Origin: Fulvia fulva
Taxonomy: Eukaryota; Ascomycota; Dothideomycetes; Mycosphaerellales; Mycosphaerellaceae
DNA: 64,000 nucleotides
Direction of reading: 5' to 3'
Assembly: GCF_020509005.1 (NCBI RefSeq)
Contig: NC_063014.1
Span: 2,976,001-3,040,000, forward strand
Every line of letters begins with the position of its first letter. Position 1 is the first letter of the stretch. Below the pieces are notes generated by a model. The model worked only from the letters and a program-made list of their open reading frames with translations. It did no database searches and had not been told where the DNA came from. A program made the translations under genes and the position numbers. Shown piece by piece: positions 10,156-55,196 of this stretch.

Positions 10156-10280
10156 CTGCGCGCTGTGCGCCTTACCGTGTTCTGTGTTCTGATGCGGCTC
10201 TGCGCGTTCTCGAGTTCTGCGGTTCTGTCTGTTCCTGTTGTTACGCGTCCCTTACCTAGATCCGCGATCTGGGTAGTAAG

Positions 10281-10291
10281 GTAGAACAAAC
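10281..10291 (-). other. gypsy-1 primer-binding site, probably self-primed (copy 1)
   Basis: The internal region starts on the minus strand with GTTTGTTCTAC, directly next to the 5' LTR. It lacks the TGG expected opposite a tRNA 3'-CCA end. Its last nine bases, TTGTTCTAC, are the exact complement of GTAGAACAA within the LTR (plus 10333-10341), 36 nt downstream of a TATA box. This is the arrangement of Tf1/sushi-type self-priming, where the mRNA 5' end primes reverse transcription. Confidence 0.7.
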
Positions 10292-10475
10292 TGTAAGGGC
10301 GCGCGTACCATAGGGTCCGAATGAGATAGTTGTTGTTCTACGAAGCTACGAAAGAGGAGCGCGAGGCGCGGCGAAGTTATAAAGTAAAGCCAAGCCGCGC
10401 TAACCCGATGCAGAAGGTCCGCGGTTCAGCCGGGCCGACGCAGCTACAGTGAGGGGTCGCGGGCTGCCCGTGACA
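10292..10475 (-). repeat. gypsy-1 copy 1, 5' LTR with promoter
   Basis: The upstream LTR of the element. On the minus strand, TTTATAA (10383-10377) is a likely TATA box. About 36 nt further on, near 10341, lies the proposed mRNA 5' end. That would make U3 about 134 nt and R-U5 about 50 nt. It joins copia-1 sequence at 10476 without a matching target duplication. Confidence 0.95.
10377..10383 (-). promoter_or_regulatory. TATA box in gypsy-1 5' LTR (copy 1)
   Basis: TTTATAA on the minus strand in GC-rich surroundings, 36 nt before the start of the motif complementary to the primer-binding site. The spacing suits an RNA polymerase II promoter. The transcript start is inferred, not seen. Confidence 0.6.
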
Positions 10476-13400: not shown

Positions 13401-13977
13401 TGTCGTCAAAAGACACTTCTATTAGGTCATCAATTGTAAAGAATGCTAATTAGCTCTCTATCTTATATCTCTAAAGGTTAAACTATCTCTTCTAATTGTC
13501 CCTCCTAAGAATTGGGATTTTGCCTCCCTTCTCCTCTATCTTCTCTTAGTATAAATCTATAATAAATTAGATATAATGAAACAAGGTGTGTATGTTCCAA
13601 AGTAGTAGCTTAGATCCTACTAAGGCTTCTAGTATAGAATAGGAAAGTTCGTAGGTATAGATTAAAGTAAAGAAGGAGCGGTATAAGGTTTCGGGGCTAG
13701 GACATAGGTCTGTCTCTCCTAGCAGAGCTTTAAATAACTTACTTAAAGTCCTTCTTAATAGTATCTCGATATAGTTCTACCTATAGAGTATCTTTAAGGT
13801 ATTAGCTTTAAGTAAGCCGTATAGAGTCCTTGTCTAGGTTACCTATTACTTAGTATCGAACTAAGCTCCTTAATAGGATAGACGGGGTAGACTTCTAATT
13901 CCCAGATGTTTTCTACTACGATAGTAAGGGATATAAGTAACCTATACTGATATAGGTTGCTCTTATTCCTATATAAA

Positions 13978-13992
13978 CCCGGGCTTAAAACC
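13978..13992 (-). other. copia-1 primer-binding site relic
   Basis: Right after the 5' LTR the minus strand reads GGTTTTAAGCCCGGG. It differs at two positions from the copia-2 site GGTTATGAGCCCGGG, which matches the anticodon stem-loop of initiator tRNA-Met. It is therefore probably a mutated half-tRNA primer site. Confidence 0.6.
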
Positions 13993-14227
13993 TGTTAAAT
14001 AGGTACGGGTAGATAGTAGGGGAGTAGAGTAAGAGATCAATCTTTAACTAACTAATAGCACGAGTATATAGCAATATATTAGGAACTAATATATTGATTA
14101 TGTTAGATGTCTATCTAAGCTAAAGGGGAGAGAAGGTATCTCCCTATAAGCTAAGTTATTATAGATGCCTTAGGCTACTAGATTACTTCCTAATTATTAA
14201 CTCCCTTTAAGATGCTATATCTTAACA
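13993..14227 (-). repeat. copia-1 LTR (5' LTR of copy A', 235 bp)
   Basis: Read on the minus strand it starts TGTTAAGATATAGC and ends TATTTAACA. The same 235-bp LTR occurs at 20953-21187, 33476-33710 and 49684-49918. Most differences among copies are C/T or G/A transitions, as expected from RIP. Confidence 0.93.
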
Positions 14228-17200: not shown

Positions 17201-17850
17201 TTCGACAGTAGCTTAATACGCTAGTCGGGTCTTTAGGGTAGGTTCGAAGGTCTACTTAGTAATTACCGGTTCCTACTTATTGTTAATACTCTATACCTAG
17301 ACTCGCTCGCTATCCTATAGGTAATACTCCTTATAGTACTCCGAGTCGAGGGTTATAGTGCCTAACGTAAAGTAGATACCTAGCTAGTGTTTATTATACT
17401 AGGGCCTACCTAGTACGATGTTATACTCTAGATATATGACCTAGAAGGCTCTAGTCTCCTTATAACTATTGCCGAGTGTAAGTTCTAGGCTAATACGGTA
17501 TTCTATTATTTCCGCGGCTATCGAGCCGTTTGCTAACCTAAGGGCTAGTAGGTTATTAAGCTTAATTAAGGGCAGATTATATTTTTGCGTATAGGAGAAG
17601 TCGACATACTTAGAATTAGCAACGTTATTAAGGAAAGAAAATGCATTTTGCCTATTCGCTATCCCTAGTATTACGAGGTATAAGCCGATAATAGGGTTAT
17701 GTTCTATCTCTACTATTCTAAGAATATATAATAATAGCTTAAGCCCTTCGGGTGGCTTTACTAGTAGTGCCTCTTCGTTATATCTTATATTCTCCTTTTT
17801 ATATCTACTAGTTGTTACGCTTAAGTAGTAGACTAGGCATTTTCCGCTAG
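14228..17850 (-). pseudogene. gypsy relic E, pol (integrase core to protease), RIP-saturated
   Basis: Degenerate minus-strand Ty3/gypsy pol. Reading from high to low coordinates: protease (about 17640-17350), RT (about 16460-15900), RNase H (about 15750-15350), then integrase with the zinc finger and catalytic core down to 14228. There copia-1 copy A' cuts it off before the integrase C-terminus. Stops are mostly TAG and TAA at former Gln and Trp codons. It is related to gypsy-1 in domain order but differs enough to be a separate family. Confidence 0.85.
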
Positions 17851-20052
17851 TAGTATAACGGTAGTACCGCTAGCGTTAGTACCTAGACGTACTAGTATCT
17901 CGTACTCGAATAGCTCGTAAGTACGCTACTATAGGCGGTGACCGGGCTTACGACACTTCTTATAGAGGCTCTTACGTATATAGCGAGTGTTCTTAGCTTC
18001 GCCTATAGTCTTACTAAGGCTACTCTTAAATAGTTTAGGTCGGGTAGACTAAGTCTCACGGGTCGGCTTATTAGAGCCTAAACCTACTAGCTTGTCGTCC
18101 TTATTGTCCTTATTGCCGTCCTTCTTATCGTTCTTTAGCTTCTCGGAGCGTAGGTAGAGAGCGTTAAGGATTCTAAAGTCCTTATCTACCTAATAGAGAT
18201 TGTCGATCATTTCTTATAACGATTCGGGACGGAAGTTAAGATACTTATTAAGATAGCGGACAGTTAGCTTACGTTATAGGTTATCTATCGTATCTTTACC
18301 CTTAAGGCCTAGGATATTAGTATTCTAGCGCTACTTAGGAAAGAAGGTCTAGAAGCTGTCCTTATTATCTATCTTGAGGTTACTTAGGCGATAACGAGCC
18401 CTACTAATTAGGTTACGGTCTCCGTATCGCTTAGCGAGTTCCTTAATAAGGTCGTTAATACCCTTATACGTCTTCTTACTACTAGTTAGGCTGCCCGAGA
18501 TAGTAGGGATCTTTAGTCTAACTAGTTCCTAAGTATTACCTAGTAAGGCTAGTAAGTCGTATACGAACTTAAGTACTACCTTCTTATCGCGAAAGACCGT
18601 ATAGTCGATAATAGTCTCTAACTCGGAGAAGAACTTCTCGAGGGAGGGTCTAGATAGCTTACTATCGATAGTACCGACAAACTTCTCTAGCTTATCTATA
18701 CTACGCTAAGTCTTAAAGGGCTGGCTAAGATCTAGATCGTACTTAACTAGAGACTCGAAGTCGTAGACTAGCTTCTTCTTCTTAGAAGAGCGGCGATAAG
18801 CACGAGTATCGCTATCCGACTCCGAGTCCTTCTCTAACTCCTTAGATAATAGATCGGAGTCGTCACTATTATCCTTACGTATAGACTTCTTAGCCTTCTT
18901 TCTAGTAGTACGGCGAGCTGCCTTGTCCTCCTCGTCCTTGTTACTAGCTCTATTATTATCCTTATTATTATCCTTAGATAGGGTTCGGCCGTTCTATAGG
19001 GCACGACGCTATAATATAGCGCGAGATAGTAAGGATCGTACTCGAGAGCGGCCTCGGCGGTCTTCGAGTTACTCCTTAAGATCATCTACCTAAGTCTACT
19101 ACGACTTATTAAGATACTTAATGTCGTTCTAGTAGGTTAGAGCTTCTATCTTATACGTATCGAGATCGAATTCGAGGGTCTTAATCTTCGAGTCATTATT
19201 AGATAACTACTAAAGTGCCTCCTTAGCTTACTTCTTTAGGGTGTCGTTCTTCGCGGTAAGTGTACTAATCTCTACGGACATTACTACATTCGATAATACC
19301 TTAGGTCGGGCCTTAAGGTTATCGAGTTCCTTAACTAGGGTGTCGTATTTATTACGTATCTATTAGTCGTAACTCTTCTATCTCCTAAGCTCTTACCCTA
19401 CTTTACCTAACTACTCGTAGAGGATAGTCGCTATCTATGTTACGTTCCTATACTCTTACTCGGCGCGTCGTAGGATAAAGTAGATAGCCGCGGTAGTCTC
19501 GGGCTCTACTAGGAGCTTAACGAGCTAGTCGATATCGAGTTAAAGGAGGTCGTTCGCGGGAATTCGGAGGGTTTTCGCGACTTATTATCTATCCTCGCCC
19601 TTACCTTCCTCGGTCGCGCCGTCGTCGTCGTAGTCGACTACCGCTATAGTAACGCCGTTCTCGTCTTAGATCTCGTCGTCGTTTAGAAGGTCGTATAAGT
19701 TAAACTTACTAAGTAGATTAGTGACTAGGCGCTATAAGTTCTCGAGTTTCTATTATATAGCGTCGTTAGTAGTCTACTACTACTCTTACGTTTGTCCTTA
19801 AGTCTATATATTAAATATAGACTCGCGCTATACTACTAGCCGTATAGCTAGTAGCGAGCCTCGCTATCCTTAGGGTCGTACTATATTAGGTACTACTTAG
19901 CCTATAGTAGTCTCTTATACCGAGTCGCGCGGTTTTTATCGTACGCCGTAATCTCTTATTACGGTTATTATTAATAATCTACGCTCTTATAGATCCCGTC
20001 GTAGCTCTTCTACGGATATAGAGACCTAGCTAAGTATAACGGTTTATAGTCG
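17851..20052 (-). pseudogene. gypsy relic E, gag
   Basis: Upstream of the E pol on the same strand. A zinc-knuckle relic with a K-C-R-K-P-G-H core lies near 17925-17970. The longest open piece, 83 codons at 18834-19085, is part of this degraded gag and not a gene. Acidic and coiled-coil-like patches are visible further upstream. The start codon can no longer be identified. Confidence 0.7.
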
Positions 20053-20171
20053 TGTTAATATAAAGTAGCTAGGTACGTAGAAAAGAGGAGCGCTAGGTAC
20101 GCCGAGGCTATATATAAGCCGAGGTACTACGCTAGTACGCGCGGTCACGTGACCTACGTACTAGCTAGACA
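20053..20171 (-). repeat. Probable 5' LTR of gypsy relic E
   Basis: Starts TGTTAATAT and ends CTAGACA. Its middle resembles the gypsy-1 LTR around the AGAGGAGCG block and the TATA region, and it has TATATATA near 20110. It contains the 12-bp palindrome GGTCACGTGACC (20143-20154). With only one copy seen, both ends are estimates. Confidence 0.6.
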
Positions 20172-20535
20172 TTTGCTAGGCCTAGGGCCGTAATAGTACC
20201 GACGACTACGTATACGGATAGACCGTAGCCTATAGCGACCCCGAGTATAGGAGGAATAGCGATAGGGGTACTAATAGAGTATAGGAGCCCGGAAGGGTCG
20301 ACTCGTCGTCTACTCGACGGCTAGCTCGTTCTCTACTCGACGGTCGACCTATCTCCTACTCAATAGGCAACCCGCCTCTACTAATAGTCGACCTATTGTC
20401 TACTCGATAGTCGGCTAGCTACTAATACTCGTTCCTAGGCACCGGGTAGATTAGTACTCCGGGGCGGCTAGCTACCTAGTACTTACCGCTTCTAGTACGA
20501 TAGATTGACCGATAAGTAATAGAGAGAACTTACTA
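20172..20535. other. Unassigned RIP-affected sequence with a minisatellite
   Basis: No coding similarity recognised on either strand. It is rich in CG and TA and poor in CA and TG, so it has been through RIP. It holds the 22-23 bp tandem repeat at 20309-20420, and could be the 5' part of the LINE-like fragment that follows. Confidence 0.4.
20309..20420. repeat. 22-23 bp minisatellite, five degenerate units
   Basis: Units start at 20309, 20332, 20355, 20377 and 20399 (spacing 23, 23, 22, 22). Each opens with a variant of TCTACTCGA followed by a variable tail. The differences between units are largely transitions. Confidence 0.75.
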
Positions 20536-20655
20536 ATACCTAAAGAGGGGTTTTCCCCGTACGCCGGTTTTCCCCTCTCTCTTTCTTAATAGCCCCCGGC
20601 CTCGTAGACCTTTTAGGAGCTAGATAGGTATTATAAATATATTTATTTATTTATA
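20536..20655 (+). mobile_element. 3' end of a Tad-like LINE (or LINE-tailed SINE), plus strand
   Basis: A hairpin with arms AGAGGGG (20544-20550) and CCCCTCT (20572-20578) is followed about 60 nt later by a TTTA-repeat tail (about 20632-20654). The same hairpin-then-tetranucleotide-tail layout ends LINE 1 and LINE 2 of this window on the opposite strand. No RT can be seen upstream, so it is a 5'-truncated copy or a SINE that borrowed the LINE tail. Confidence 0.5.
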
Positions 20656-20952
20656 CTAGGCTAGAAGAGGTTTTGCCTCTATAGTAGGTTAAAAGTCCTT
20701 ACTATACCTTAGTGGCTAGCTACTCTACTATTATTGTATTTACGTACTATCCGGGTACGGAGGTTCTAAAAGGCTAGGATATATAAGGCTTTGTCGATAT
20801 ATAGTCGATCTACGATAATTTCGTAATCTAATACGGCGATCTTCTATTATTATAGCTATACGTTAGCGATCCCTTACTAGAGATCGGACTTTAGTTTAAG
20901 TATACGTGTCGTTATAGACCGGCTATTATATACTTCTATATATAGTTCTTCT

Positions 20953-21187
20953 TGTTAAGATATAGCATCTTAAAGGGAGTTAATAATTAGGAAGTAATCT
21001 AGTAGCCTAAGGTATCTACGATAACTTAGCTTATAGGGAGATACCTTCTCTCCCCTTTAGCTTAGATAGACATCCAATACAATTAACACATTGGTTCCTA
21101 ATATATTGCTACATACTCGTACTATTAGTTAGTTAAAGATTGATCTCTTACTCTACTCCGCTACTATCTATCCGTACCTATTTAATA
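20953..21187 (+). repeat. copia-1 LTR (5' LTR of composite element A)
   Basis: A full 235-bp LTR starting TGTTAAGATATAGC. The last bases are TTTAATA, where other copies have TTTAACA. Compared with 33476-33710 I count roughly 17 differences, all transitions. No primer-binding site follows: gypsy gag sequence starts directly. Confidence 0.92.
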
Positions 21188-23800
21188 CTAATAATCTATA
21201 TAAGTAATTTTACGATCTTAGTAAAAAGGAGAAGAAGAAGGCATAAGAGGCTAAGAAGAAGGCACAAGATACTAAGAGTATAAACTAGGCGTTATAGAAG
21301 GAGATCGATAACTTAAAGACTCGACTCTAAGCTATTAAGGACAACACTACTAACGGTAATAGGCGTCTAGGCCGTAGTCTATTACGCTCGCGCTCTTACC
21401 CGCGAGAGACCTCCCTCGAGAAGCTTTAGCGTATATATCGTAAAGCCGCGACCGGGGGCGGTAGAGGTAGTAGTAGAGATGACGATAATAATGACGGCCT
21501 AGGCCGTAGTGATAAGGACAAGGATCGAGGCCGTAATAAGCGGAGAACTTAAGATATCGGCCTATATATTAGAACTATAGTTACCGGATATATACCCTTA
21601 TATAGTACTGCCTATAATAATATAAAATAGAAAGGCACGAGGCCTACTAGATTCTGCTTCAACCTCTCTCTTTCTCGATTAGAAATATATACGCAAATAT
21701 AATATCCCTCTAATACCCCTAGTTTAGAGTAAGAACTTAATACTAGGCGATAGGAAGGCGAGTACTAGGCGTATTATATACGTAGCCTTAGTCGACGTTA
21801 TTATCGGCGGTCATTATTACGAGCAAATAATATACTACGTGACCGACCTCGAATACGAGATCGTCCTCGGCCTACCTTAGTTAAGCTAGTATAACCCTAA
21901 CATCTTCTAGGAAACCGGCGAAGTAGCCCTTAGATCAGACTACTACTTTAGTTACTATCTTCGTAGGAAGACTTCGACAATAGTTTAGTCCCTAAACTAC
22001 TAATACCGGTAACGTACGAAATACGGACTAGAGCCCTTTACCGGGGAGTCGCCGGGATTTACGGTAGGAGGGGCGGAGTTGAACGTCTCGTCCTTATATA
22101 TAGACGACGATAAGAAAGTAGACTATTAAGGCGTTAGTCGTTACGCTTAGGAGATGTATACGTACCGGCCTAGGGCCGAGTGCTTCTATATTCTACCTAC
22201 TAGTAACGAGTCTAGCGAAACGGATAGTAATAGCGAGTTAAAGCTAAGCGTAATATTAGCTAACGACCTTAATTAGTTCCTAAATAAGCAATTTAACCAC
22301 AACCCGAAGGAGAAGCTTCCGCCCGAGTACTATTATATTACGGACGCGTTCTTAGCTAAAGACTATAAAGGGCTCCCGCCTTATAGGCCGGGCATTAACT
22401 ATAAAATCTATATTAAGCCCGACGGCCTATAAGAGCCCCCTTACCGCAAACCCTATAGGCTTGTACCGTAAGAGAATAAAGTAGTTAAGAAATAGGTTAC
22501 TAAGTAGGAGAGCGAAGGGAAAGTCTGTAAGACTAGTTAGAAGATAAGCTAGTCCCTAGCTCCTATTCTAGTAGTACGTAAGCTAGGAGGAGGACCCCGA
22601 GTATATATTAACTATCGAGGGCTAAATATAATAACTATTAAGAATAGGTACGCTATACCTTTGATCTAGGAAACCCTTAACAGGATGTATAGTAAGAAGT
22701 ACTTTACGAAGCTAGATATCGTCGTAGCCTTTAATAAGCTTCGTATTACCGAGGGGCATAAATAGCTAATAGCGTTCGCTACGCGGTACGGAGTATACGA
22801 ATGTCTAGTCTTGCCGTTTAGTCTATATAACGGCCCGGTATCGTTTCAGTTATATATTAATAGTGTGCTATAGGAACACCTTAACGACTTCGTATTAGTA
22901 TACCTAGATAATGTACTAATTTTTAGCGACATACTCGAAGAGTATATCGAGTACGTAACGAAGGTTTTAATAAAACTACGCGATACCGGGTTAACCGTAG
23001 ATATTGACAAATACGAATTCTATTAGTAGAGAGTCAAATACCTAGGCCTAATTATTACGCTAGAAGGCATTGAAATGGACCCCGATAAGCTAGAATGTAT
23101 CTAAAGCTAGGAGGCTCTAACTAACCTAAAGGATATATAAGCGTTCTTAGGCTTTACTAACTTCTATAGACGGTTTATCGAAGCGTTCTCGCGACTTATA
23201 TCGCCGCTAACCAACTTGACTAAGTCCGATAGCCCTAGTAACTATAAGAACAGAAGAATCGATTAGATACTAGAGTACTAGAAGGCGTTTAACGTATTAA
23301 AGGCAGCATTTAGCAAAGCGGGTATATTAGTATATTACGTACCGGGGAGGTAGATAGTCGTTAAGACGGACTCCTCGGATTTCGTTAATACCGGCGTCCT
23401 CTCCTAATATAACGAAGAAGGCGTCCTATACCCGGTAGCGTTTTACTCTAAGAAGTTAAGTCTATAAGAGTATAACTATAAGATCTACGATAAGGAGCTA
23501 TTAGCTATTATTAAGGCGTTTAAAGAGTAGAGGCCTAAATTAGCCTACGAAGTAGATAATAATACTATCGAACCGGTCAAAGTGTTTATAGATCATAAGA
23601 ACCTAGAGTACTTTATAACGACGAAGTAGCTCAATCGACGTTAGGGGAGGTAGGCTAAGTTCCTCTCTTAGTTCAACTTCCGTATCGTCTATAGGCCCGG
23701 TATTTAAGGCATAAAGCTAGATAGTCTAACGAGACGTAGCTAGGACCTTCCGTAGGGGGTAGACGATCCGCGTAATTAGTATTAGTACTAGACGTTACGC
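21188..23800 (+). pseudogene. gypsy-1 relic fragment: gag coiled coil, then protease to RNase H
   Basis: A RIP-mutated copy of gypsy-1, sense on the plus strand. It begins within the gag coding sequence at a position equal to about residue 243 of intact Gag. It runs through the coiled coil and Gly/Asp-rich part, has lost the capsid and zinc-knuckle portion (junction near 21600), and resumes before the protease. It continues through RT and RNase H to the linker after RNase H. Nearly every lost codon is explained by C-to-T or G-to-A. Bases from 22246 onward repeat window positions 1-1555. Confidence 0.88.
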
Positions 23801-25498
23801 ACATTACTCATTATATACACTACTTATAGAGAATGCCTTTGTGACTACTTAATTAGAGACCGACCTAAAGTAGTAGGAGCTTTAGTATAGAAGATTTGTA
23901 CACTTTGGGAAGAATTTGCTCTAGAATCTTTATAAGATAATAGACTTAAAAGAACCTATTCCTATCCCTAAGGATAGCTTTCACTAGTATATAGTATGTT
24001 CAATAGTAAAGATAAAGAAGTATAAAGGCAAAGTTATAGAGAGAAGACCTGAAAGACTTACCCTTATATCTATTGATATATATAGCCTACTACTAATCTT
24101 AAGACTAGGATTCAAATACTAGCTTAAGATTGTTAACAACTTCTCTAGGAAGAAGTGGACCTTTCCTCTTAGGAAAAGAGAAGATGCTCTAGTTACTCTC
24201 TAGAACTAGAAGATCAAAGTAGAGAGGAAGTCATTAGCGTAGCTAAAAGGAGTAAGACTTGATAATACAAAAGAACTTATTGCATTAGTAAAGTAGTAGG
24301 AGAAGGATTTAGGGATTGGGCTCGAGCCGACTAAGGCATACAACTCTCTATAGAATGGACTAGTTAAGAGGTCAATACAAACCTTAGAGGACTCTATAAG
24401 GGCAATGCTTAAAGAGGCTAAAATGTCGGTTGAATTTTGGCCTAAAGTACTAGAGGCCTAGACCTATATAAGGAATAAACTACTAAATGGCCTAGATTAC
24501 GATAGGTTTAAGGTTTTACTAGATAGGCTTTTAATAGTATCAAACCGACTATCAACTATTTAAGAGTTTAGGGATACAAAGCTATTGTCTATATAGACAT
24601 AAGATCCTAATCTTAATAGGTAAGAAGTAACAAGCTAATAAATAGGGGTAAAGAAGCAGTGTTTATTATATAACTATATTAAAAACATAGCTAAAGCCTA
24701 GCTCTTTTAGGAACTAGACATAAGAGCTATTAAACAACATATATATATAGACTTCCTTAAGGACTAGCCTAGAGGTGATATAGGTCTTAATGTTCTAACA
24801 TTAAATCTACTAAGTAGCGTACTAGCTAGGAAGCCCTTAGGAAGGCCGAGGAAGAACGTATCTTTAGGACAATCTACCTACTATTTAGGCGTCTATTAGA
24901 GCACCCCCGGAATAGATTAGCTAATTAAGAGCCCTAAAGTCGCTCAGCCGAGAAAGCTGTTTATATAACTTCCCTAACCTCCGGAGAACGTAGGCGAATT
25001 TCAGAAAATCGATTGGCTAATTAAGAGAAGCTCCCTAGATCCCTAGAAAATAGACGTTACTAGGTTATAAGTAACGGTCCCTAAATTATCCCTTGGAAAG
25101 AGAAAGGCTGACTATGATGTTAAGGGCTATAACATGAAATAGAAAGCCCTAAAATCTATAGTCCCTAAGCCTGAACTAACTACTAAAGTAGGAGAAGCAA
25201 TAGACCTCTTAGAGAACCTTACTACTTTTTACTAAGCTTTCTTTATAGCTATACAATTAGTGGACAGTTCAATACTATAGGATAGTGAATTCCTAGAAGA
25301 AGTTAAGGAAATGGCCTTTATAGCAACTATAGAAGCCATTATATATAAGTAAGAGGTCCTAATTCTAAAATCCTATAAGGATGCTATAAATGACAAGAAA
25401 TAGGGACATCTTTAGAAGGAAGCAATCCAAAAGGAACTAGATGCTCTATAGAGTAACAACACCTAGGAAAATTCTGTTCTACTAAAAGGAGCAAATCT
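23801..25498 (+). pseudogene. copia-1 pol in element A, 5' part (integrase to start of RT)
   Basis: The same reading and features as the block at 1556-3253, but here it is linked to its own 3' part across the gypsy-1 insertion. The GAG-pre-integrase segment, the integrase core and the linker with the start of RT can be aligned to copy B. The last five bases, AATCT (25494-25498), are the left target duplication of gypsy-1 copy 2. Confidence 0.88.
25494..25498. other. Target-site duplication of gypsy-1 copy 2, left
   Basis: AATCT directly before the LTR at 25499. It matches AATCT at 32721-32725 after the other LTR, which shows copy 2 is an undisturbed insertion. Confidence 0.9.
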
Positions 25499-25682
25499 TG
25501 TAAGGGCGCGCGTACCATAGGGTCCGAATGAGATAGTTGTTGTTCTACGAAGCTACGAAAGAGGAGCGCGAGGCGCGGCGAAGTTATAAAGTAAAGCCAA
25601 GCCGCGCTAACCCGATGCAGAAGGTCCGCGGTTCAGCCGGGCCGACGCAGCTACAGTGAGGGGTCGCGGGCTGCCCGTGACA
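25499..25682 (-). repeat. gypsy-1 copy 2, 3' LTR
   Basis: 184 bp, TGTAAGG to CGTGACA on the plus strand, matching the other three gypsy-1 LTRs in the window. It contains the pol stop codon at 25607-25609. Confidence 0.97.
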
Positions 25683-28600
25683 GTACCCCCCCTCCCAAAA
25701 CACGCCTCAGTCCTCTGAGCGTTATTCACCTTGTGAGGCCACTTGCCTGTCGAGCTCCATAATCGCGCGAACGCCGAATCATCCTCTAGTGCCCTGTCGT
25801 CATCCGATAACATCGCATTCGCTCTATCAAGACTATCCTCGACCGGCTTCCTTCGAGAAACATGTTGCCTAGTTAGCTGGCTTGCCCCAGATCTAAGTCT
25901 GTCTTCGGCTCGCACTCGCGTATGATCCTTATGACCAAAGTTGGGTATCATTGCAGGCTCTGTAGGCTCCACTCGAGTATCGAATATGTGCGGAGCAGAT
26001 TCTATTAGAGGCAAGGCTCGAGGCGACTCATTCGTGACGGTGTCTTTCGGAATGACCCTGATCGAGTTGAGCCCGAGTATCTCAGTGGCTGGTAGGGACC
26101 AGTCAGATGGAGCTGCGAAGCCTACAGGCGTAGACAACTCCGGCCGGTTATGGTGAAAGTCTGCAACAGCGGCGGCTGCGTGTTCAAGCATGTCCTCTGC
26201 AGGTTGCCAGGTCTCACCATCCTCTTCGTTCTGATATCCAGCCCATTTCACCTTGTACCATGTATCTACTTTGCGCTTGTGCCCCTTCTTCACCTTGCCT
26301 GCCCGCTTACGGGTGTACATGTCAAGGATCTTTTCCACCTCGTACATGTGCGTAGGTGCTGCCACTACATCGGCTGCTGCATCAGCCTCGGTGGTGTCAG
26401 GTTCGATAGTTATCGGTGGTGGCGGCGCCAGATGCTGCCCTTCAAGTGGTGGGAAATCGGGGTGGTCGGCTCGTTGTAGTAGTGAGGTGTGGAAGCAGTT
26501 ATCAAGTCCTACTAGAGCGTCTGATAGTTTCAGTCGATAAGAGAGTCTGGCCGGCATAACTTCCGTGATCTGGTAAGGGCCGGCATATCTCCTGTCCAGC
26601 TTCTTAGATGGTCGAGTCGTGCGGATGTTCTTGGTGCTAAGATACACCCAATCACCCACCTTGTAGTCTGGAGGAATGCTTCGGTGGCGGTTTGCTGCCT
26701 CTGCTTGGAGAGCTTGTGACATTCGCATATTCTCTTGAAGGTGTTTGTGAAGCTCGCAAATTCGACGCACAAAGGTTTCTGCTGATCGCGCGTCCAGTCG
26801 CTGGAGAGTGGTCAGTCCTCCCTCCTTTCCAGCGTTCAGGTCAACTCGCTCTATGAACTCAGGGTTGTATCCTAAGGTGGCGTAGAACGGCGACACACCA
26901 GTAGTCTCAGACAGGTGATTGTTGATCGCGAACTGAGCAAGGCACAGCCATTCTGCCCAGTCATCCTGTGCCTCGTTGGTGAACATGCGGAGATACTGTT
27001 CCATCGCCTGGTTAGTGCGTTCTGACTGTCCATCAGTTTCTGGGTGATACGAAGAACTCAGCTTGCGATTTGTGCGGAGCATCTTGCAGAGTTTCTTCCA
27101 GAAGGTAGCAACCCACTGCTTGCCACGGTCTGATGTAATGGTGTCAGGAAACCCGCGCCGACAGAACACATGTTTGAGGAAAAGCCTTGCCGTATTCTGT
27201 GCTGTCATTGCGCCAATAGGGATCAGCTCGACTTCCTTAGTGAGCCTGTCAGTGACGGTCATAATGTTGTTGTAGACCATGCCGTCAAGAGTGCTGTCTG
27301 GGAGTCCGACAACGAAGTCGACTGCAATGTGTTTCCAAGGCCGATCTGGAACAGGAAGTGGCTGTAGTAATCCTAGTGGCTGGGAGTGCAGAGATTTTGT
27401 TGTACGGCAGGTGCGGCAATTCGCGGTGTATCTGCGCACGGATCTCGCTAATCCAGGCCAGTAGAATTCACGTGCTACGAGTTCATAAGTGCGAGCTCGT
27501 CCTGGATGGCCTGCTGCTGGAGCGTCATGGTTTATCTTGATTATCCTGGTCTGTAAAGCTTGGTCATTTGGTACCCATAAGCTCCAGCCGTCGTATTGGT
27601 TTCGAACATATAGCAGGTCGCCATCCACTTTGCAGTGTGCTGGGTGAATCTTCGCTCTCTGTAGCAGTGTAGGAGTGCGGTCTTTCTGCAGGTCCTTAAT
27701 CGCGGTCTTGAGCTCGTTATCGGTTACGTACGCCGTCGACATTCGATACTCGAGTTCGGCTTCCCGCTGACTTTCACGCGTCGCCGGTTGTTCAGTAGGC
27801 GCATCTCGTTCTGTAGGCATAAACTCTTCAGCTTCAGGGTTTAGCGGTACTGGTTCCTCTTCTTCCGGCGCATCTTCTACTGTTGCCTGTAGTGAGGCGA
27901 TCTTAAGGAATCGCTTAGGAGGCAGCAATGTCTGATGCTGATGCTGGTTCCGAGGGTCGTCCACCCCCTGCGGAAGGTCCTGGCTGCGTCTCGTCAGGCT
28001 GTCTGGCTTTGTACCTTGAAGTCCTGGACGGTATATTATCTTGAAGTTGAACTGTGACAAGAACTCAGCCCAACGCGCTTGTCGCCGATTTAGCTGCTTT
28101 GTCGTCATGAAGTATTCCAGGTTCTTGTGGTCGGTGTAAATCTTGACTGGCTGTGAGTCCTCATCATCTGCCTCGCAGGCGAGCTCGGGTCTCCATTCCT
28201 CAAAAGCCTTGATGATGGCTAACAGTTCCTTATCATAGATTTCATAATTGCACTCCTGTGGACTCAACTTCTTCGAGTAGAAGGCCACAGGATGTAGCAC
28301 ACCATTCTCGTCATACTGCGAAAGCACGCCGGCGTTCACAAAATCTGAAGAATCTGTCTCTATTACTGTTTCCCTGCCTGGCACGTAATGTGCGAGCATG
28401 CCGGCTTTGCTGAACGCAGCTTTCAAATTGTCAAAGGCTCGTTGGCAATCTAGTGACCATTGAATCCTTCTGTTCTTGTGATTGCTTGGTCCGTCCGACT
28501 TGGTCAGGTTTGTGAGAGGAGCAGCTATGCGCGAAAATGCTTCGATGAATCGCCTGTAGAAGTTGGCAAATCCAAGGAAGGCCTGGACATCCTTCAGGTT

Positions 28601-30403
28601 CTCAGGAGCTTCCCATGTCTGAATACATTCGAGTTTCTCGGGGTCCATCTCGATGCCGTCAGGGGTTATGATTAGCCCAAGATACTTCACCTTCTGTTGG
28701 TGGAATTCGCTTTTGTCGATGTCCACTGTAAGTCCTGCATCGCGTAGCTTGGTGAGAACCTTCCGCACGTGTTCAATGTGCTCCTCCAAGGTGTCACTGA
28801 AGATAAGTACGTCATCCAGGTAGGCCGACACAAAGTCGTCTAGGTGTTCTTGCAAGACCTTGTTGATGTATGATTGGAACGATGCTGGTCCGTTGCACAA
28901 GCCGAATGGCAACACTAGACACTCGTAGATGCCGTATCGTGTCGCAAACGCTGTCAACCACTCGTGCCCTTCAGCTATCCGTAACTTGTTGAAGGCTGCT
29001 ACAATGTCCAGCTTTGTGAAGTACTTCTTGCCGTGCATGCGGTTGAGCGTCTCTTGTATCAAGGGAATCGGATACCGGTTCTTGATAGTGATCGCATTCA
29101 ATCCTCTGTAGTCGATACAAACACGCAGCCCACCTCCAGGCTTACGTACCACTAGCACTGGTGCAGGAGACTGGTTCGTCTTTTGCCCTGCTTTCCGCAC
29201 CTTCCCTTCAGATGTTTGCTCGTCTAGCCATTTTTTAACTGCCTCGTTCTCCTTCTCAGCTAGGCCGTAGGGCTTGCGGTATGGTGGCTCTTGTGGACCA
29301 TCAGGCTTAATGTGAATCTCATGATCTACGCCTAGTCGGTGAGGTGGGAGTCCTTCATGATCCTTAGCTGAGAAAGCGTCCGCAATATCGTGGTACATTG
29401 GCGGCAACTTCTCCTTCGGGTTGTGATTGAACTGCTTGTTCAAGAATTGGTCCAGATCATCAGCAGCCATTGCACTCAGCTTAAGCTCTCCGCCGTCGCT
29501 CTCACGCCTAGTGGGCATGATGTAGAAGCACTCAGCCCCAGGCCGGTGCGCGTACATCCCCCACGCGCGTTGAGAAACGCCCTGGCAGTCCACTTCTTCA
29601 TCGTCTATGTCTTCCAGGTCATATGATGAGGCATTCAGCTCTGCTCCTCCTGCTGTGAAGCTCGCTACATCTCCAGTGAAGGGCTCTGGTCCGTACCGTA
29701 CTGGTGCCTGCTTCTTCTTCTCGCGGTGGTTCAGGGATTGCACTGTTGTCGGTGTCTTATTCTGTAGACAGTGACCAAAGCAGTAATCCGACCTGAATGC
29801 CACCTCGCCTGTCTCCCAGAAGATGTTTGGGTTGTGCGCTGTAAGCCACGGCAGGCCAAAGACGATGTCGTATTCGAGGTCGGTGACGTAGCATAACATT
29901 TGCTCGTGATGATCGCCTATGACTACGTCTACAGGGGCCGCGTGTGTAATCTGCCGCGCAGTGGCCGTTCCATCTCCCAGTGTTAGTCGTCGGCTTTGCG
30001 TCAAAGGGATCAGGGGTATTGTGTATTTGCGTGTGAATTTCCAGTCAAGAAAGAGAGAGGTGGAAGCAGAATCTACAAGGCCTCGAGCCTTTCTCTGTTG
30101 TATCATTACGGGTAACACTATGTGAGGGTACACAGCTGGCTGTTGCTTATCCAGTGCGCATGCCGATATCTTAAGCTCCTCACTATAGTCTGTTACCGTC
30201 TCTTGCGTTCCGTGTCTCTCAATCTCATGCTCTTTCTGTCCTAGGAAGTTCGGGTGACCGCTGTCTACCACGCTTAGGCAGCGGTCGTGCCATTTCCCTG
30301 CCGCGGATCGGCGGCTAGGGAACTGAGGTTCGCGTTCGGATTCGGCGTGGTATTGCGTGGACGCGGTGGGCGATAGTCGCCATCGTACCCATACATTGGG
30401 CAT
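25607..30403 (-). CDS. pol: gypsy-1 Pol (copy 2)
   Basis: The product is identical to copy 1 Pol: a 1,598-codon frame carrying aspartic protease (variant DSAS active site), RT with YLDD at bases 28811-28822, RNase H, a D,D35E integrase with HHCC finger, and a C-terminal chromodomain. It overlaps gag by 130 nt in the -1 frame and is presumably expressed as Gag-Pol. This copy sits in its original insertion site. If the family is active, this copy and copy 1 could both supply protein. Confidence 0.95.
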   Translation of the reverse strand: MPNVWVRWRLSPTASTQYHAESEREPQFPSRRSAAGKWHDRCLSVVDSGHPNFLGQKEHEIERHGTQETVTDYSEELKISACALDKQQPAVYPHIVLPVMIQQRKARGLVDSASTSLFLDWKFTRKYTIPLIPLTQSRRLTLGDGTATARQITHAAPVDVVIGDHHEQMLCYVTDLEYDIVFGLPWLTAHNPNIFWETGEVAFRSDYCFGHCLQNKTPTTVQSLNHREKKKQAPVRYGPEPFTGDVASFTAGGAELNASSYDLEDIDDEEVDCQGVSQRAWGMYAHRPGAECFYIMPTRRESDGGELKLSAMAADDLDQFLNKQFNHNPKEKLPPMYHDIADAFSAKDHEGLPPHRLGVDHEIHIKPDGPQEPPYRKPYGLAEKENEAVKKWLDEQTSEGKVRKAGQKTNQSPAPVLVVRKPGGGLRVCIDYRGLNAITIKNRYPIPLIQETLNRMHGKKYFTKLDIVAAFNKLRIAEGHEWLTAFATRYGIYECLVLPFGLCNGPASFQSYINKVLQEHLDDFVSAYLDDVLIFSDTLEEHIEHVRKVLTKLRDAGLTVDIDKSEFHQQKVKYLGLIITPDGIEMDPEKLECIQTWEAPENLKDVQAFLGFANFYRRFIEAFSRIAAPLTNLTKSDGPSNHKNRRIQWSLDCQRAFDNLKAAFSKAGMLAHYVPGRETVIETDSSDFVNAGVLSQYDENGVLHPVAFYSKKLSPQECNYEIYDKELLAIIKAFEEWRPELACEADDEDSQPVKIYTDHKNLEYFMTTKQLNRRQARWAEFLSQFNFKIIYRPGLQGTKPDSLTRRSQDLPQGVDDPRNQHQHQTLLPPKRFLKIASLQATVEDAPEEEEPVPLNPEAEEFMPTERDAPTEQPATRESQREAELEYRMSTAYVTDNELKTAIKDLQKDRTPTLLQRAKIHPAHCKVDGDLLYVRNQYDGWSLWVPNDQALQTRIIKINHDAPAAGHPGRARTYELVAREFYWPGLARSVRRYTANCRTCRTTKSLHSQPLGLLQPLPVPDRPWKHIAVDFVVGLPDSTLDGMVYNNIMTVTDRLTKEVELIPIGAMTAQNTARLFLKHVFCRRGFPDTITSDRGKQWVATFWKKLCKMLRTNRKLSSSYHPETDGQSERTNQAMEQYLRMFTNEAQDDWAEWLCLAQFAINNHLSETTGVSPFYATLGYNPEFIERVDLNAGKEGGLTTLQRLDARSAETFVRRICELHKHLQENMRMSQALQAEAANRHRSIPPDYKVGDWVYLSTKNIRTTRPSKKLDRRYAGPYQITEVMPARLSYRLKLSDALVGLDNCFHTSLLQRADHPDFPPLEGQHLAPPPPITIEPDTTEADAAADVVAAPTHMYEVEKILDMYTRKRAGKVKKGHKRKVDTWYKVKWAGYQNEEDGETWQPAEDMLEHAAAAVADFHHNRPELSTPVGFAAPSDWSLPATEILGLNSIRVIPKDTVTNESPRALPLIESAPHIFDTRVEPTEPAMIPNFGHKDHTRVRAEDRLRSGASQLTRQHVSRRKPVEDSLDRANAMLSDDDRALEDDSAFARLWSSTGKWPHKVNNAQRTEACFGRGGTVTGSPRPLTVAASARLNRGPSASG
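25683..25696 (-). other. gypsy-1 copy 2 polypurine tract
   Basis: Minus-strand purine run ending directly at the 3' LTR, in the same position as in copy 1. Confidence 0.85.
30256..30298 (-). promoter_or_regulatory. Candidate -1 frameshift signal (copy 2)
   Basis: The same elements as in copy 1: slippery heptamer at 30298-30292, 5-nt spacer, stem arms at 30286-30279 and 30263-30256, with the gag stop in the loop. Confidence 0.85.
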
Positions 30404-32400
30404 TCAGGGTTGGTCGACACGTGAGAACCTGTACGGCAGCGGTAGCACTTACCCTGCTTCTTAAGGTCTTCGCGCTGCTCACGGTTGAGCGTAGGCAGGT
30501 TCTGTAGATGTGTCGGCAGATCCTCCTTCTTCTTGGTACCAGCGTACTGTAGTGGGCGCTGTACCAAGGCACCTGCTACACCGGCAGCGGCACTAGCAAC
30601 TGCGTTGCCGTTGTTCTGGTTGTTCTGGCCGCCATTGCTGTTCGAGTTGCCATTGCCCCGGGGGCGCTCCTTCTGCGGGTATAGTCGATCTGTCTCGTAG
30701 AAACTCTCGTCCAGTGCGGTGCACTCCTCGATAACGTCTTGCATGCTGTCTAGGCGGCGGTCGACTTCGCGGTCGCCGAAGGTCTTGATGAAGTACTTGC
30801 GGTTCAGTCGGTTACGGAACAGCATGAGCTCGGTCTCATCGGTCCATGACATCCAGGCGCGCAACTTCGAGTAGCGGGCATGGAAGGCTACAAAGGTTTC
30901 GCCTTGTTCTTGCTTGCAGGTAGCAATGTCAACCATAGCCTTGGTTCCCTCATTGCGTGTGCCATATTGGCGTGTCATCCAGTCTAATAACTCTTCTCCA
31001 GTCTTGAACTCGTTGAAGGACTGCTGTCCAGGCACAGGGATCCTCGGCTTGATGCTTCGCTGAGGATCACCTTGTGTCCACCCATACACGAAGCGCAGAC
31101 CATCTGCCTCAGTGCGGAAGGTTGCTACAGTCAGCTTTAGGAGAACACTGCTGTACCAGCTGTCGAAATTGGGGTCGTCATCGTTCTTGAAGTGCTTAGG
31201 GTCGGGCACACCCTTGCCGATCTCCATGCCGCGAGTGAGGGTGCGGTCAATGGTGAAGAGACGTTCTGGAAGGTCAACCAGTGGTGTCTGGGTGCGGGTG
31301 TTGCGCATTCTCGAGTCACGACTGTTGTTGGGTCCTGGTCGCGGACGGTCGTTGTCACGTCCTCGGCCATTGTCGCCACGGTCATCGTCGTCTCCATCGT
31401 TATCGTTATCACCACCACCGCCACCGCCCCCTCCACCAGCAGCTTCGCGATACCTACGCAATAGCTGCTCGAGTGAGGTCTCGCGTGGGCGGGAACGAGA
31501 GGGTCGGCGGCCTGAGCGGCCCCTACCTCCGTTCTGTGTGGTGTCTCCTGCCTCAAGCCGAGCCTTCAGGTCATCGACTTCTTGTTGTAGGGCCTGGTTC
31601 TTCGCCTCAGCATCTTGTGCCTTCTTCTTCTCCTTCTCGCAGATCTCGCTGAACTGCTTGCACAGGTTGTTGGCTTCCTTGTATTTCTTCCCCAGCTCTT
31701 GCAACTTAGCTGGGTCGCAATCCTTCTTGCTCTTGAGATCTGCTGCCATTTTCTGTGTGACAAGCTCTTCACTTCGCAGCATCTTGTAGATGCGGTCGTA
31801 TTCGGTGTACAGCGTGGTGTACTGGGTGTTCTGGAGGTCGTTGGCTCGCTCCATTACATCGAGTTGTCTGCCCTTAGTAATTGCCGTGTTGACTGCTTGT
31901 AGCACGAAGTCGTGGGTGGTCTTCGGGTGTTGGGATGCAAGGGTCGTGAGGTTGTCTGGGGTGACATTCTGGTATTCGGATGCGAGAATGTGTTCTGCCT
32001 CGTCGAGTGATAGATACACCTCGTCTGGGTCGCCGCCTGGGTTCTCTTCGAGCTTGAACTCGAACAGTTCTGTAAAGTCAATCTCACCACCTTCTTCTCG
32101 CTCGAAGGCCTTCTGGTAAGCTTTATCAATCTCTTGTTGTAGCGCGACACCGGTGTCTACTGTGACCCGCCGGTTGTCGTCCTGTGTCTGACTCTGAGGA
32201 AAAGAGGAGAGGTCGGGGAAAAGAGATGTGCGCTGCTTGCTTTTGCCCTTAGGCTTAGGTGGCGGTCGCATGCCGCCGTTCGCTGTTTGTGAAGTCATGT
32301 TGTCTGGGTTCGGGGGAGGCGTGACGGTGCCTGTATCCTGACTGTCTACGAGCGCGCGACCACCTGCTGATGGTGTCGCCGCGTTGCGTTCTCTAGGCAT
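30274..32400 (-). CDS. gag: gypsy-1 Gag (copy 2)
   Basis: A 708-codon product identical to copy 1 Gag, from ATG 32400. It shows the coiled coil, the Gly-run and Asp-rich linker, the capsid-type domain and a C-terminal zinc knuckle with a long last interval. It is transcribed from the LTR at 32537-32720. The antisense frame across the Gly-rich part is open only because of base composition. Confidence 0.93.
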   Translation of the reverse strand: MPRERNAATPSAGGRALVDSQDTGTVTPPPNPDNMTSQTANGGMRPPPKPKGKSKQRTSLFPDLSSFPQSQTQDDNRRVTVDTGVALQQEIDKAYQKAFEREEGGEIDFTELFEFKLEENPGGDPDEVYLSLDEAEHILASEYQNVTPDNLTTLASQHPKTTHDFVLQAVNTAITKGRQLDVMERANDLQNTQYTTLYTEYDRIYKMLRSEELVTQKMAADLKSKKDCDPAKLQELGKKYKEANNLCKQFSEICEKEKKKAQDAEAKNQALQQEVDDLKARLEAGDTTQNGGRGRSGRRPSRSRPRETSLEQLLRRYREAAGGGGGGGGGDNDNDGDDDDRGDNGRGRDNDRPRPGPNNSRDSRMRNTRTQTPLVDLPERLFTIDRTLTRGMEIGKGVPDPKHFKNDDDPNFDSWYSSVLLKLTVATFRTEADGLRFVYGWTQGDPQRSIKPRIPVPGQQSFNEFKTGEELLDWMTRQYGTRNEGTKAMVDIATCKQEQGETFVAFHARYSKLRAWMSWTDETELMLFRNRLNRKYFIKTFGDREVDRRLDSMQDVIEECTALDESFYETDRLYPQKERPRGNGNSNSNGGQNNQNNGNAVASAAAGVAGALVQRPLQYAGTKKKEDLPTHLQNLPTLNREQREDLKKQGKCYRCRTGSHVSTNPECPMYGYDGDYRPPRPRNTTPNPNANLSSLAADPRQGNGTTAA

Positions 32401-32525
32401 CTGCGCGCTGTGCGCCTTACCGTGTTCTGTGTTCTGATGCGGCTCTGCGCGTTCTCGAGTTCTGCGGTTCTGTCTGTTCCTGTTGTTACGCGTCCCTTAC
32501 CTAGATCCGCGATCTGGGTAGTAAG

Positions 32526-32536
32526 GTAGAACAAAC
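32526..32536 (-). other. gypsy-1 primer-binding site (copy 2)
   Basis: The same 11-nt site next to the 5' LTR. Its nine-base complement is at 32578-32586 in the LTR, supporting self-priming. Confidence 0.7.
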
Positions 32537-32720
32537 TGTAAGGGCGCGCGTACCATAGGGTCCGAATGAGATAGTTGTTGTTCTACGAAGCTACGAAAGA
32601 GGAGCGCGAGGCGCGGCGAAGTTATAAAGTAAAGCCAAGCCGCGCTAACCCGATGCAGAAGGTCCGCGGTTCAGCCGGGCCGACGCAGCTACAGTGAGGG
32701 GTCGCGGGCTGCCCGTGACA
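32537..32720 (-). repeat. gypsy-1 copy 2, 5' LTR with promoter
   Basis: Carries the TATA box at 32628-32622 (minus strand). It is followed on the plus side by AATCT (32721-32725), the right target duplication. Confidence 0.96.
32622..32628 (-). promoter_or_regulatory. TATA box in gypsy-1 5' LTR (copy 2)
   Basis: TTTATAA on the minus strand, in the same place relative to the LTR ends as in copy 1. Confidence 0.6.
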
Positions 32721-32725
32721 AATCT
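32721..32725. other. Target-site duplication of gypsy-1 copy 2, right
   Basis: AATCT, the partner of 25494-25498. Confidence 0.9.
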
Positions 32726-33475
32726 GGTTACATTAAGATAGGTCTTTGATATTAAGAGAAGCCTTAGTGGAGCTATTGAAAAGTTCAAGGCTAGACTCTA
32801 CTACATAAAGGCTTTAAAGAAGATTACTAGGTACCTAAGATCATACCCTGATCTAGGACTTTAGTTCTTAAAGTCTAGAAAAGGACACCTTATTAGATAC
32901 TATGATTCTGATTATATAATAGACAAAGTAGACAGAGTCTCAATCCTTAGGTATGTCTTCCTCCTCTATAGGGCACTAGTTTCTTAGATGAGCAAGAAGT
33001 AAAAGTCTGTAGCAACATCTATAATAGAGGCTGAATATATAGCTATAAATATATATACGAAGTAGTCTTAATTCCTAGCTTTACTACTAAGAGAAATAGA
33101 TTGTCTAGAGTTAGTAGGAGACTGTTCCTATTAACTAAGAATCACTAGAAACTAGGAGACTGTATCAAATTTAAGACTAGTCTAATTAAGAGGTAATAAT
33201 CAAGCTGCCCTTACCCTAGTAAAAGATGTACATGTTTATAACAAGTCGAAGCACATTAACATTGCCTATAACGCTATTAGGAAACTTTAGTAGAGGAGGC
33301 TTATTGCTATTAAGTACACCCTAACCTCTAAGATAGTTATAGACGGGTTTATAAAACTAGAGACTAGTCTACACTTCTAGAGGTTTATAAGCTAGCTTAA
33401 CCTATTATAAAAAGGCCTAAGTACTATTGACATGAAGTGAGTAGACTATAACCTCCTATACGAGATAAGTAGGAG
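32726..33475 (+). pseudogene. copia-1 pol in element A, 3' part (RT start and RNase H)
   Basis: Continues the copia-1 frame after the gypsy-1 insertion. Near 32797 it jumps from the start of RT to the end of RT. By alignment to copy B, 777 bp (48229-49005 there) are missing, including the YVDD active site. The RNase H region follows (about 32990-33400), then the 3' LTR. TAG stops are frequent. Confidence 0.87.
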
Positions 33476-33710
33476 TGTTAAGATGTAGCATCTTAAAGGG
33501 AGTCAATAATCAGGAAGTGATCTAGTAGCCTAAGGTATCTACAATAACTCAGCTTATAGGGAGATACCTTCTCTCCCCTTTAGCTTAGATAGATATCTAA
33601 CACAATCAACACATTGGTTCCTAATATATTGCTGTATGCTCGTGCTATTAGTTAGTTGAAGATTGATCTCTTACTCTACTCCGCTACTATCTACCCGTAC
33701 CTATTTAACA
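33476..33710 (+). repeat. copia-1 LTR (3' LTR of composite element A)
   Basis: 235 bp, TGTTAAGATG to TATTTAACA. It is the least mutated of the copia-1 LTRs here, keeping several CA and TG steps lost in the others. CTTCT follows at 33711-33715. Confidence 0.93.
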
Positions 33711-33715
33711 CTTCT

Positions 33716-34950
33716 TTATATAACTCCGTTTACTCCCGTTCCTCTAGTAGCGTAGGTTCGTCTAACGGCCCTATACTTCCTTCGACAGGTTACTCGTTAC
33801 TAGGCGTATCTTCGACTAGGACTCTACTATCTAGTTCCGAGTCGACGTTACTATCTACCTCGGCGTTGTTTAGTTCGAGTAACGGCTATATTACGTCTCG
33901 CTAGGCGAGACGGGTTAATCGCCGCGGGTAGCGATATCGCTAGTATAGTAGTCTTCTTCTTTATCGTTCGATTCGTAAATTAATAGTGCTTAATAGTATA
34001 GACGACTAATCACCCTAGTAAGTAAGAGCGCGCTTAGTAACCTTAAGATAGCTCGCGCGTAGGTATATATACTTATCGGTCCGCGGGCCGTAAAGTATAT
34101 ATAGTACTCTTAAACAAAAGATAATAAATCTGAAATTTTTAGATTCCCGTATCTTCGCCTTATAGAGAGATTCCTCGCAAATCCTAGCTTCCTACTAAGG
34201 TCGCCTCCTAACTATATATATCTTAGTAGTACCCCTATATACCCCTACTACGTAATTAACCGTTAAAGGTTAACAAGATTCGACGCGCAAATTTTAGGGT
34301 CTTAAGGGGGCCCTTAGCTCGCTAATATATCCTCCTCTATTACGAAACTGTCCCTAGTTTCACCTCCGCTACGCTAATATGAACTAAGAAACTATACCTA
34401 TAGGTTGACGTAAGGAAGGCGGATCCGGCGTCTAGTTAAGTAGTTAGTCTAGAGATATTAAGGAGATCGTAAGTTCATTCTATAAGGGACTAAGGAGACT
34501 AAATTAAAGTCTAGTCTTCGTAGTACGCCTACTCTTAAATTAAGGATATAGCCTAGAAATTAGTTAAGCACGCTAGAAACTAGGTACTAGAACTAGAAGC
34601 TAGTTAAACTAAGGTCAGAAACCTGTTATAGTCTCCCTATAGAGTATATAGAAGGTAGGGACAGAAGAGCCTTAGAGTACTTAGAAGTCGTTAAGAAGTG
34701 AAAGTCTAGCTTAGTATATAAGCGCTAAGAATTATATACCCCGTAACATTTACTACGGGACCTAGCCCTCCAAATTCACTACTCTACTAAACCTTAACAG
34801 ATTTACTTCGGCTCGTAGCTATATAACTTACGGTACTCCCGCGAGCACCCGCGACTACGCTAGACCCTAGAAGAAGTACGTAGAAGACTCGGAACGTAGT
34901 GCAGGTTAGAATAAGGTTTTAAGTAAAGCTACTAAGCGCGGCTTCGTATA
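33716..34950. other. Unassigned flank of element A
   Basis: This continues the sequence that ended at 20952 before element A inserted. Minus-strand translation of about 34000-33740 gives a fairly clean acidic, Ser/Leu-rich stretch that could be part of a retroelement gag, but I cannot assign it. About 34100-34900 has no coding character. I see no host gene. Confidence 0.4.
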
Positions 34951-46020: not shown

Positions 46021-46029
46021 AATACTACT

Positions 46030-49918: not shown

Positions 49919-49997
49919 ATATCTATAATAAGGAGATATTAGCGGTAGTGTTCTATTTAAAATTCTAGATACCCGAGTTAAAGATATATAGGCCCTT
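49919..49997 (+). pseudogene. gypsy relic D, short RNase H piece left of copia-2
   Basis: 79 bp that translate on the plus strand as the RNase H segment with the E-I-L-A-V-V core. The frame resumes at 55428 after copia-2, giving the T-D-Y-K-N-L-E-Y-F block. The upstream RT of relic D is not in the window. Confidence 0.8.
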
Positions 49998-55171: not shown

Positions 55172-55196
55172 GGGATTGTTTGAGACCTTCTGACCT

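Follow-up and report, generated by a model that had tools for sequence, protein, structure and literature searches.

At positions 20953-33710 of a 64,000-nucleotide stretch of chromosome 3 of the ascomycete Fulvia (Cladosporium) fulva, which causes tomato leaf mould (C3:2976001-3040000, hereafter the window), lies a composite retrotransposon that has copia-1 long terminal repeats (LTRs) at both ends and an interior that begins with gypsy sequences. From left to right, it comprises LTR A, a gypsy-R gag piece, a gypsy-R reverse transcriptase (RT)/RNase H piece, copia pol, a complete gypsy-1, a further part of copia pol and LTR B. In a preliminary description, it was taken for a copia/gypsy hybrid that had inserted as one unit. 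The data presented here show that its ends belong to one copia insertion and suggest that its interior was changed afterwards by rearrangement of the DNA. The surrounding region, intact gypsy copies excepted, is AT-rich and broken by stop codons; most differences between its copia copies are transitions, as is typical of repeat-induced point mutation (RIP).

Outer ends and empty sites

The outer LTRs, A (20953-21187, plus strand) and B (33476-33710, plus strand), are both 235 bp long, stand in direct orientation and are identical at 218 of 235 positions, the differences being 17 transitions and no transversion; LTR A is related to three other LTRs of the window. The ends are of the TG...CA type: LTR B terminates in CA, and LTR A terminates in TA through a RIP-type change. 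The element is flanked by the two parts of a repeat, named repeat X. The left part (20652-20952, plus strand) ends in CTTCT (20948-20952) and the right part (33711-34000, plus strand) starts with the same 5-mer (33711-33715), which forms a target-site duplication (TSD).

Both halves of repeat X were searched separately in the F. fulva genome (67,169,167 bases in 14 contigs), the best 40 of 176 (left) and 345 (right) candidates being scored and both strands of the retrieved loci being read. Among the loci retrieved, the two halves are contiguous at 36 other places, where they share exactly 5 bp. These places represent 35 distinct sequences, as two of them are alike over the 405 bp compared; counted by distinct sequence, the shared 5-mer is CTTCT in 30, TTTCT in three, CTTTT in one and ATTCT in one. 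Repeat X is uninterrupted in 28 of 28 left-flank loci and in 28 of 29 right-flank loci, the lone exception (L079) having the right half without the left one. Since 36 places keep repeat X uninterrupted with a single 5-mer, both outer LTR ends, 20953 and 33710, belong to one and the same copia insertion. The element has what is expected of a copia LTR retrotransposon, i.e. two related direct LTRs and a 5-bp TSD with its empty site.

The coordinates of the two LTRs, their CTTCT flanks and their status as ends of one insertion, all given in the preliminary description, are thus confirmed, and the empty site joining the outer flanks, which it had proposed to look for, was found many times over. 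Two independent copia insertions with flanks that match by chance are ruled out by the empty sites. A chance match of 5 bp had been estimated at about 1 in 1000; in the nearby RIP-affected DNA, two random 5-mers are equal with a probability of 0.0025 (about 1 in 400), odds that the empty sites make moot. LTR A cannot be a solo LTR within gypsy-R either, as its left flank is repeat X.

Interior of the element and its junctions

The gypsy-R gag piece (21188-21538, plus strand) follows the last base of LTR A. This junction (J1, 21187/21188) is blunt and lies exactly at the LTR end: loci L083 and L003 match from 21188 onward and differ at 21187. Next comes the gypsy-R protease/RT/RNase H piece (21539-23798, plus strand), the limits of which are given by locus L086 at the start and by five gypsy-R copies at the end. 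At the boundary between the two pieces (J2, 21538/21539), about 1141 bp of gypsy-R are missing. The starts of the matches to two search queries, one for each piece, are 368 bp apart in the hybrid, against 1509 bp in six of nine plus-strand copies and 1505, 1508 and 1628 bp in the others; this set consists of copies in which both matches were listed as starting at the first query base, at most 2 kb apart, and leaves out three same-contig pairs (on C11, C4 and C5) with shortened or distant pieces. The pol piece is 68% identical to gypsy-1, and the alignment of the gypsy-R patch with the nested gypsy-1 has 1511 identical columns out of 2267, with 499 transitions and 227 transversions. The patch, previously assigned to gypsy-1, is therefore to be reassigned: gypsy-R is another family and not simply a RIP-affected gypsy-1 copy, and its two pieces are separated by a gap of about 1.1 kb relative to other copies.

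The copia-1 pol piece (23799-25498, plus strand) is joined bluntly to gypsy-R (J3, 23798/23799) and is 96.1% identical to 46456-48159, in copia-1 copy C. The succession of gypsy RT/RNase H and copia had been recognized correctly, with a junction placed at 23800/23801 that must be moved to J3. The last five bases of this piece, AATCT, belong to the TSD of gypsy-1, which is nested at this point. Past the latter, copia-1 pol continues (32721-32797, plus strand; matching 48152 onward), then the 3' pol region (32798-33475, plus strand) is 94.4% identical to 49006-49931, LTR included. At the junction between them (J5, 32797/32798), 777 bp of copia (48229-49005 of copy C) are gone, without overlap. 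As read by eye from the alignments, the four internal breakpoints share 0-1 bp each. The interval 21188-33475 contains no further copia LTR, and the gypsy-R and copia cores are each incomplete.

Among the five stop-free fragments of the hybrid that were scanned, one from gypsy-R (22874-23023) has a weak RVT_1 match (E 1.2e-4) that falls below the Pfam cut-off, and a still weaker one, likewise below the cut-off, to an unrelated family; the other four (one from gypsy-R and three short ones from copia) have no Pfam match. According to the preliminary description, copia would resume at the pre-integrase region; none of the three copia fragments has a match that bears this out. The pieces are assigned because their DNA matches gypsy-1 (RT frame) and, via copy C, copia-2 (RVT_2). 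The copia-type pol is thus recognized indirectly: the copia part matches copy C, which is 69% identical to copia-2, and fragment 53729-54097 of copia-2 matches RVT_2 (E 4.1e-24).

The nested gypsy-1 (25499-32720, minus strand) is complete and flanked by the TSD AATCT. Its LTRs (25499-25682 and 32537-32720) are 100% identical, and it has two open frames, at 25607-30403 (1598 aa) and 30274-32400 (708 aa). The former matches the Pfam families for RT, RNase H, integrase and chromodomain; the latter has no Pfam match above the cut-off. This copy and that at 3254-10475 each have 184-bp LTRs that are identical to each other, as well as two long open frames, and stand amid RIP-affected relics; the complete gypsy-1 looks recently active. 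No match to the intact gypsy was found in a plasmid collection.

Reference copies and the primer-binding site

The normal order of copia-1 is seen in copy B (10476-14227, minus strand), where LTR D (13993-14227) is followed by the primer-binding-site-like sequence GGTTTTAAGCCCGGG and then by the 5' half of copia-1. Copy C (46025-49916, plus strand), which ends with its 3' LTR (49684-49916), is uninterrupted across the J3 and J5 sites, and copy B is also uninterrupted at the J3 site. A relative with less RIP, copia-2 (50000-55427), has 220-bp LTRs (about 50000-50219 and 55208-55427) that are 93% alike, and carries GGTTATGAGCCCGGG after its 5' LTR. In the hybrid, gypsy-R starts at 21188, where copy B has GGTTTTAAGCCCGGG and copia-2 has GGTTATGAGCCCGGG; the earlier observation that gypsy directly follows the 5' LTR without primer site is therefore upheld. 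The pattern GGCTCATAACC, complement of the core of this site, has 324 matches in the genome against 8 for the reversed control, an excess that agrees with the primer site being common. The primer of this copia family is presumably an initiator-Met half-tRNA, although the tRNA was not located. A half-tRNA primer is described for Drosophila copia in the available part of PMC5371799.

Copies B (10476-12509, minus strand) and C (46025-48063) share a 2-kb patch at 99.2% identity, 1327 bp of which are 100% identical. This value exceeds the 96% found between either copy and the hybrid, and duplication or gene conversion probably produced the shared patch once RIP had taken place.

Search for further copies

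The junctions J1, J2, J3 and J5 were searched in the F. fulva genome, the best 40 of 450-1048 candidates being scored for each, so that divergent copies could be missed. Among the matches listed, J1, J2 and J3 are each found at full length at two places and J5 is spanned at one. For J1-J3, the second place is situated 22,245 bp further left, in a tandem duplicate of 22.2 kb, which rules it out as a second insertion: these junctions are present twice because the stretch that carries them was duplicated. The remaining listed matches stop at the junction and, in the case of J1, at the LTR end or at most 25 bp past it, with the exception of C5:5155514. The latter (L084, 59 bp past the LTR) and C5:1647156 (L085), the two matches that extend furthest beyond the LTR, were rejected as J1 donors, as the sequence that follows the LTR is not gypsy-R. 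Among the best 40 of 1048 candidates, no further copia LTR is fused to gypsy-R at 21188. According to the preliminary description, the same junctions at several loci would prove that the hybrid moved; independent insertions with these junctions are absent from the matches listed.

Outside the duplicate, neither the gypsy-R pol piece nor the gag piece exceeds 96% identity to any listed genomic copy; therefore, no present RIP-affected donor is evident, in contrast to the situation of copies B and C, which share their copia patch at 99.2%. The state of gypsy-R elsewhere was assessed on 16 loci of about 3.1 kb each, taken from the 20 cut in the J3 search after two window copies and two copia loci had been left out. 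Six of the 16, including the reference copy (L006), are continuous over essentially the whole stretch and 10 are broken. Some of these breaks may be insertions of other elements.

A tandem duplication of 22.2 kb

The right end of the left unit (positions 1-10475 of the window, plus strand) is 100% identical to 22246-32720 over 10475 bp and includes part of the duplicate hybrid and the gypsy-1 at 3254-10475. The rest of this unit lies to the left of the window (loci L081, L087 and L022). The stretch C3:2963500-2976207, which begins with the end of a gypsy-1 copy, equals window 9747-22452 except for one TA, the only difference between the two units over the compared stretches. A third gypsy-1, the leftmost, is known from its two ends, its start at C3:2957007 (L082) and its end at C3:2964228 (L081). 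The order is thus gypsy-1, unit, gypsy-1, unit, gypsy-1, the gypsy-1 copies being direct and, where compared, identical. The right gypsy-1 has AATCT on both sides, the middle one AATCT and CCCTA, and the left one CTATAG and CCCTA. Mismatched flanks like those of the middle copy are expected after unequal crossing-over between direct gypsy-1 copies, and the borders suggest that the 22.2-kb stretch was duplicated in this way. The duplication is either very recent or an assembly effect.

The flanks of the leftmost gypsy-1 need an additional, older event. Its left flank (L082 1-710, C3:2956300-2957009) is another repeat, 92.5% identical to window 61240-61948, and its lack of a TSD hints at an older recombination between gypsy-1 copies.

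Origin of the hybrid

What is seen directly comprises the outer insertion, the junctions, the gypsy-1 that came later and the duplication. Taken as a whole, these features are best accounted for by an ordinary copia-1 insertion, the interior of which was later changed by rearrangement at the DNA level (probability of about 0.7, all routes together). The following route, which by itself comes close to an even chance, can be proposed. Copia-1 inserted once into the old repeat X, creating the CTTCT duplication that the empty sites reveal. A gypsy-R element would then insert into this copia, and a second copia, in the same orientation as the first, would insert into the gag region of gypsy-R at 21188. 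Recombination between the 5' LTR of the first copia and the 3' LTR of the second would delete everything between them, leaving a single LTR joined by its natural end to gypsy gag (J1). Deletions by end joining would subsequently join gypsy to copia at 23798/23799 and remove the sequences missing at 21538/21539 and at 32797/32798. More recently, gypsy-1 inserted at 25499, where its AATCT duplication is still visible, and unequal crossing-over between direct gypsy-1 copies would then have doubled the 22.2-kb stretch. As the CTTCT duplicate is still present on the far side of LTR B, the second copia and gypsy-R have to be placed inside the first copia, or the patch has to be copied in. The last LTR base, where J1 lies, is where the 3' LTR end of a nested copia would meet gypsy. 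In addition, the ceiling of 96% for the gypsy-R pol piece is expected if this piece stems from an insertion of its own that underwent RIP in place. The ten broken gypsy-R loci also count in favour of rearrangement, and the tandem units, the two gypsy-1 copies without TSD and the B/C copia patch indicate that such DNA-level events took place nearby. In the same species, a nonreciprocal translocation linked to Ty1/copia, with truncated copies involved, is reported in the available part of PMC10823647, which makes DNA-level recombination of such repeats credible.

Several points weigh against this scenario. No intermediate was found: neither a gypsy-R LTR nor a TSD was noticed inside copia, and the J1 candidates scored include no other copia LTR fused to gypsy-R. 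The nested route takes more steps than one chimeric insertion. Moreover, gypsy-R and copia are co-oriented, as they should be after template switching but would be in one of two cases after nested insertion, and LTRs A and B share every non-transition site, as one unaltered insertion also predicts. Finally, a patch made in complementary DNA (cDNA) before RIP would give the same ceiling of 96%.

Repair of a double-strand break, which is counted within the general rearrangement reading and requires no nested elements, appears unlikely as the actual route. The break would be repaired by LTR-directed copying from an ectopic copia lying in gypsy-R, or by capture of gypsy-R fragments, followed by end joining. 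Homology to the LTR would set the start of copying at the LTR and give J1 exactly; the blunt J3 and the presence of two gypsy pieces within one patch are also in agreement with such a process, and retrotransposon sequences captured at breaks are reported from mouse zygotes in the available part of PMC4516963. However, no donor with the LTR/gypsy-R join is among the best 40 of 1048 candidates, no listed gypsy-R copy comes as near as the B/C copia patch does, and simple fragment capture leaves the exact LTR end unexplained. Other post-insertion DNA routes, besides this one and the nested one, are rather improbable.

A chimera of the two superfamilies formed at the cDNA level, either through template switching or because linear cDNAs underwent end joining, and inserted by the copia integrase via the outer LTR ends, leaving CTTCT, is likewise unlikely. 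Most of this small chance goes to template switching between co-packaged copia and gypsy RNAs, the chimeric cDNA being integrated as a unit. This mechanism requires the fewest separate events, agrees with the single TSD around the whole element and with the common orientation of gypsy-R and copia, and was proposed for copia complexes with TSDs in grasses (PMC1950507). No independent copy of the hybrid is among the matches listed, though, and the LTR lacks a primer-binding site, the join lying exactly at its end. LTRs A and B also differ by more transitions (17) than the four other pairs compared (11, 11, 14 and 15, the pair C-D being left out), which would speak against template switching, though these counts are blurred by RIP and did not separate the models. 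A later strand transfer in reverse transcription uses the same primer-binding site as priming. The priming itself takes place at this site, beside the 5' LTR, according to the available part of PMC5371799. Because both processes use the site, gypsy gag at the LTR end is hard to obtain by a single template switch. End joining of linear cDNAs would give an exact LTR end without primer-binding site, but joining of cDNAs by means other than template switching has a minimal probability. Further deletions with 0-1 bp overlap affect the gypsy and copia parts alike; with J1 at an LTR end devoid of primer site, these short overlaps and internal deletions are better explained by recombination after insertion, together with end joining, than by template switching. 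The proposal that the hybrid inserted as one unit is thus left unsupported.

An assembly artefact, in which the hybrid junctions or the tandem duplicate would be false joins in repeat-rich DNA, is highly improbable: three 7.2-kb gypsy-1 copies and a near-perfect 22.2-kb repeat are a classic setting for misassembly, but the outer flanks are as expected from the empty site, the internal junctions are situated in RIP-affected DNA that differs by several percent between copies, so that long reads could place them, the tandem units differ by a TA, and the 67.17-Mb Race 5 assembly is described, in the available part of PMC9453070, as 14 polished chromosomes from telomere to telomere.

Relationships with known elements and significance

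A Ty1/copia retrotransposon of C. fulvum with a consensus of 5.6 kb and direct repeats of 240 bp is described in the available part of PMC10823647. It resembles the copia described here in its host species, in LTR length (235 bp here) and in the involvement of truncated copies in rearrangement; it differs by the gypsy patch found here, the two elements being compared by description and not by sequence. Among the papers listed for chimeric copia/gypsy elements, the nearest by title and abstract concerns the template-switching complexes of grasses (Sabot and Schulman 2007, PMC1950507), which also have a composite interior inside one 5-bp TSD. In these complexes, the outer LTRs are similar and enclose a third LTR and two cores, both of them complete. 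Unlike them, the hybrid has the flanking TSD but no third LTR, no complete core and no primer-binding site; the similarity of its outer LTRs (17 transitions and no transversion in 235 bp) is confounded by RIP. For about 7 Mb of Triticeae sequence, Table 1 of PMC1950507 lists 2 complexes attributed to template switching and 20 that are recombinant. The same paper cites complex elements in which LTRs of separate insertions have recombined (Devos et al. 2002); these share with the proposed route a recombined LTR that links two elements. As presented there, those complexes lack a flanking TSD, whereas it survives here, which in the proposed route is due to the nesting of the second element inside the first.

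If the cDNA chimera were true, this locus would be a case of a gypsy/copia chimera integrated as a single piece in a fungus. As it stands, the moving-hybrid interpretation is unsupported and the locus is an ordinary, though instructive, relic. Outer TSDs alone are no proof that an interior travelled with its ends, and a junction found twice may reflect tandem duplication and not transposition. A composite relic with a perfect TSD and proven empty sites can therefore resemble a mobile hybrid.

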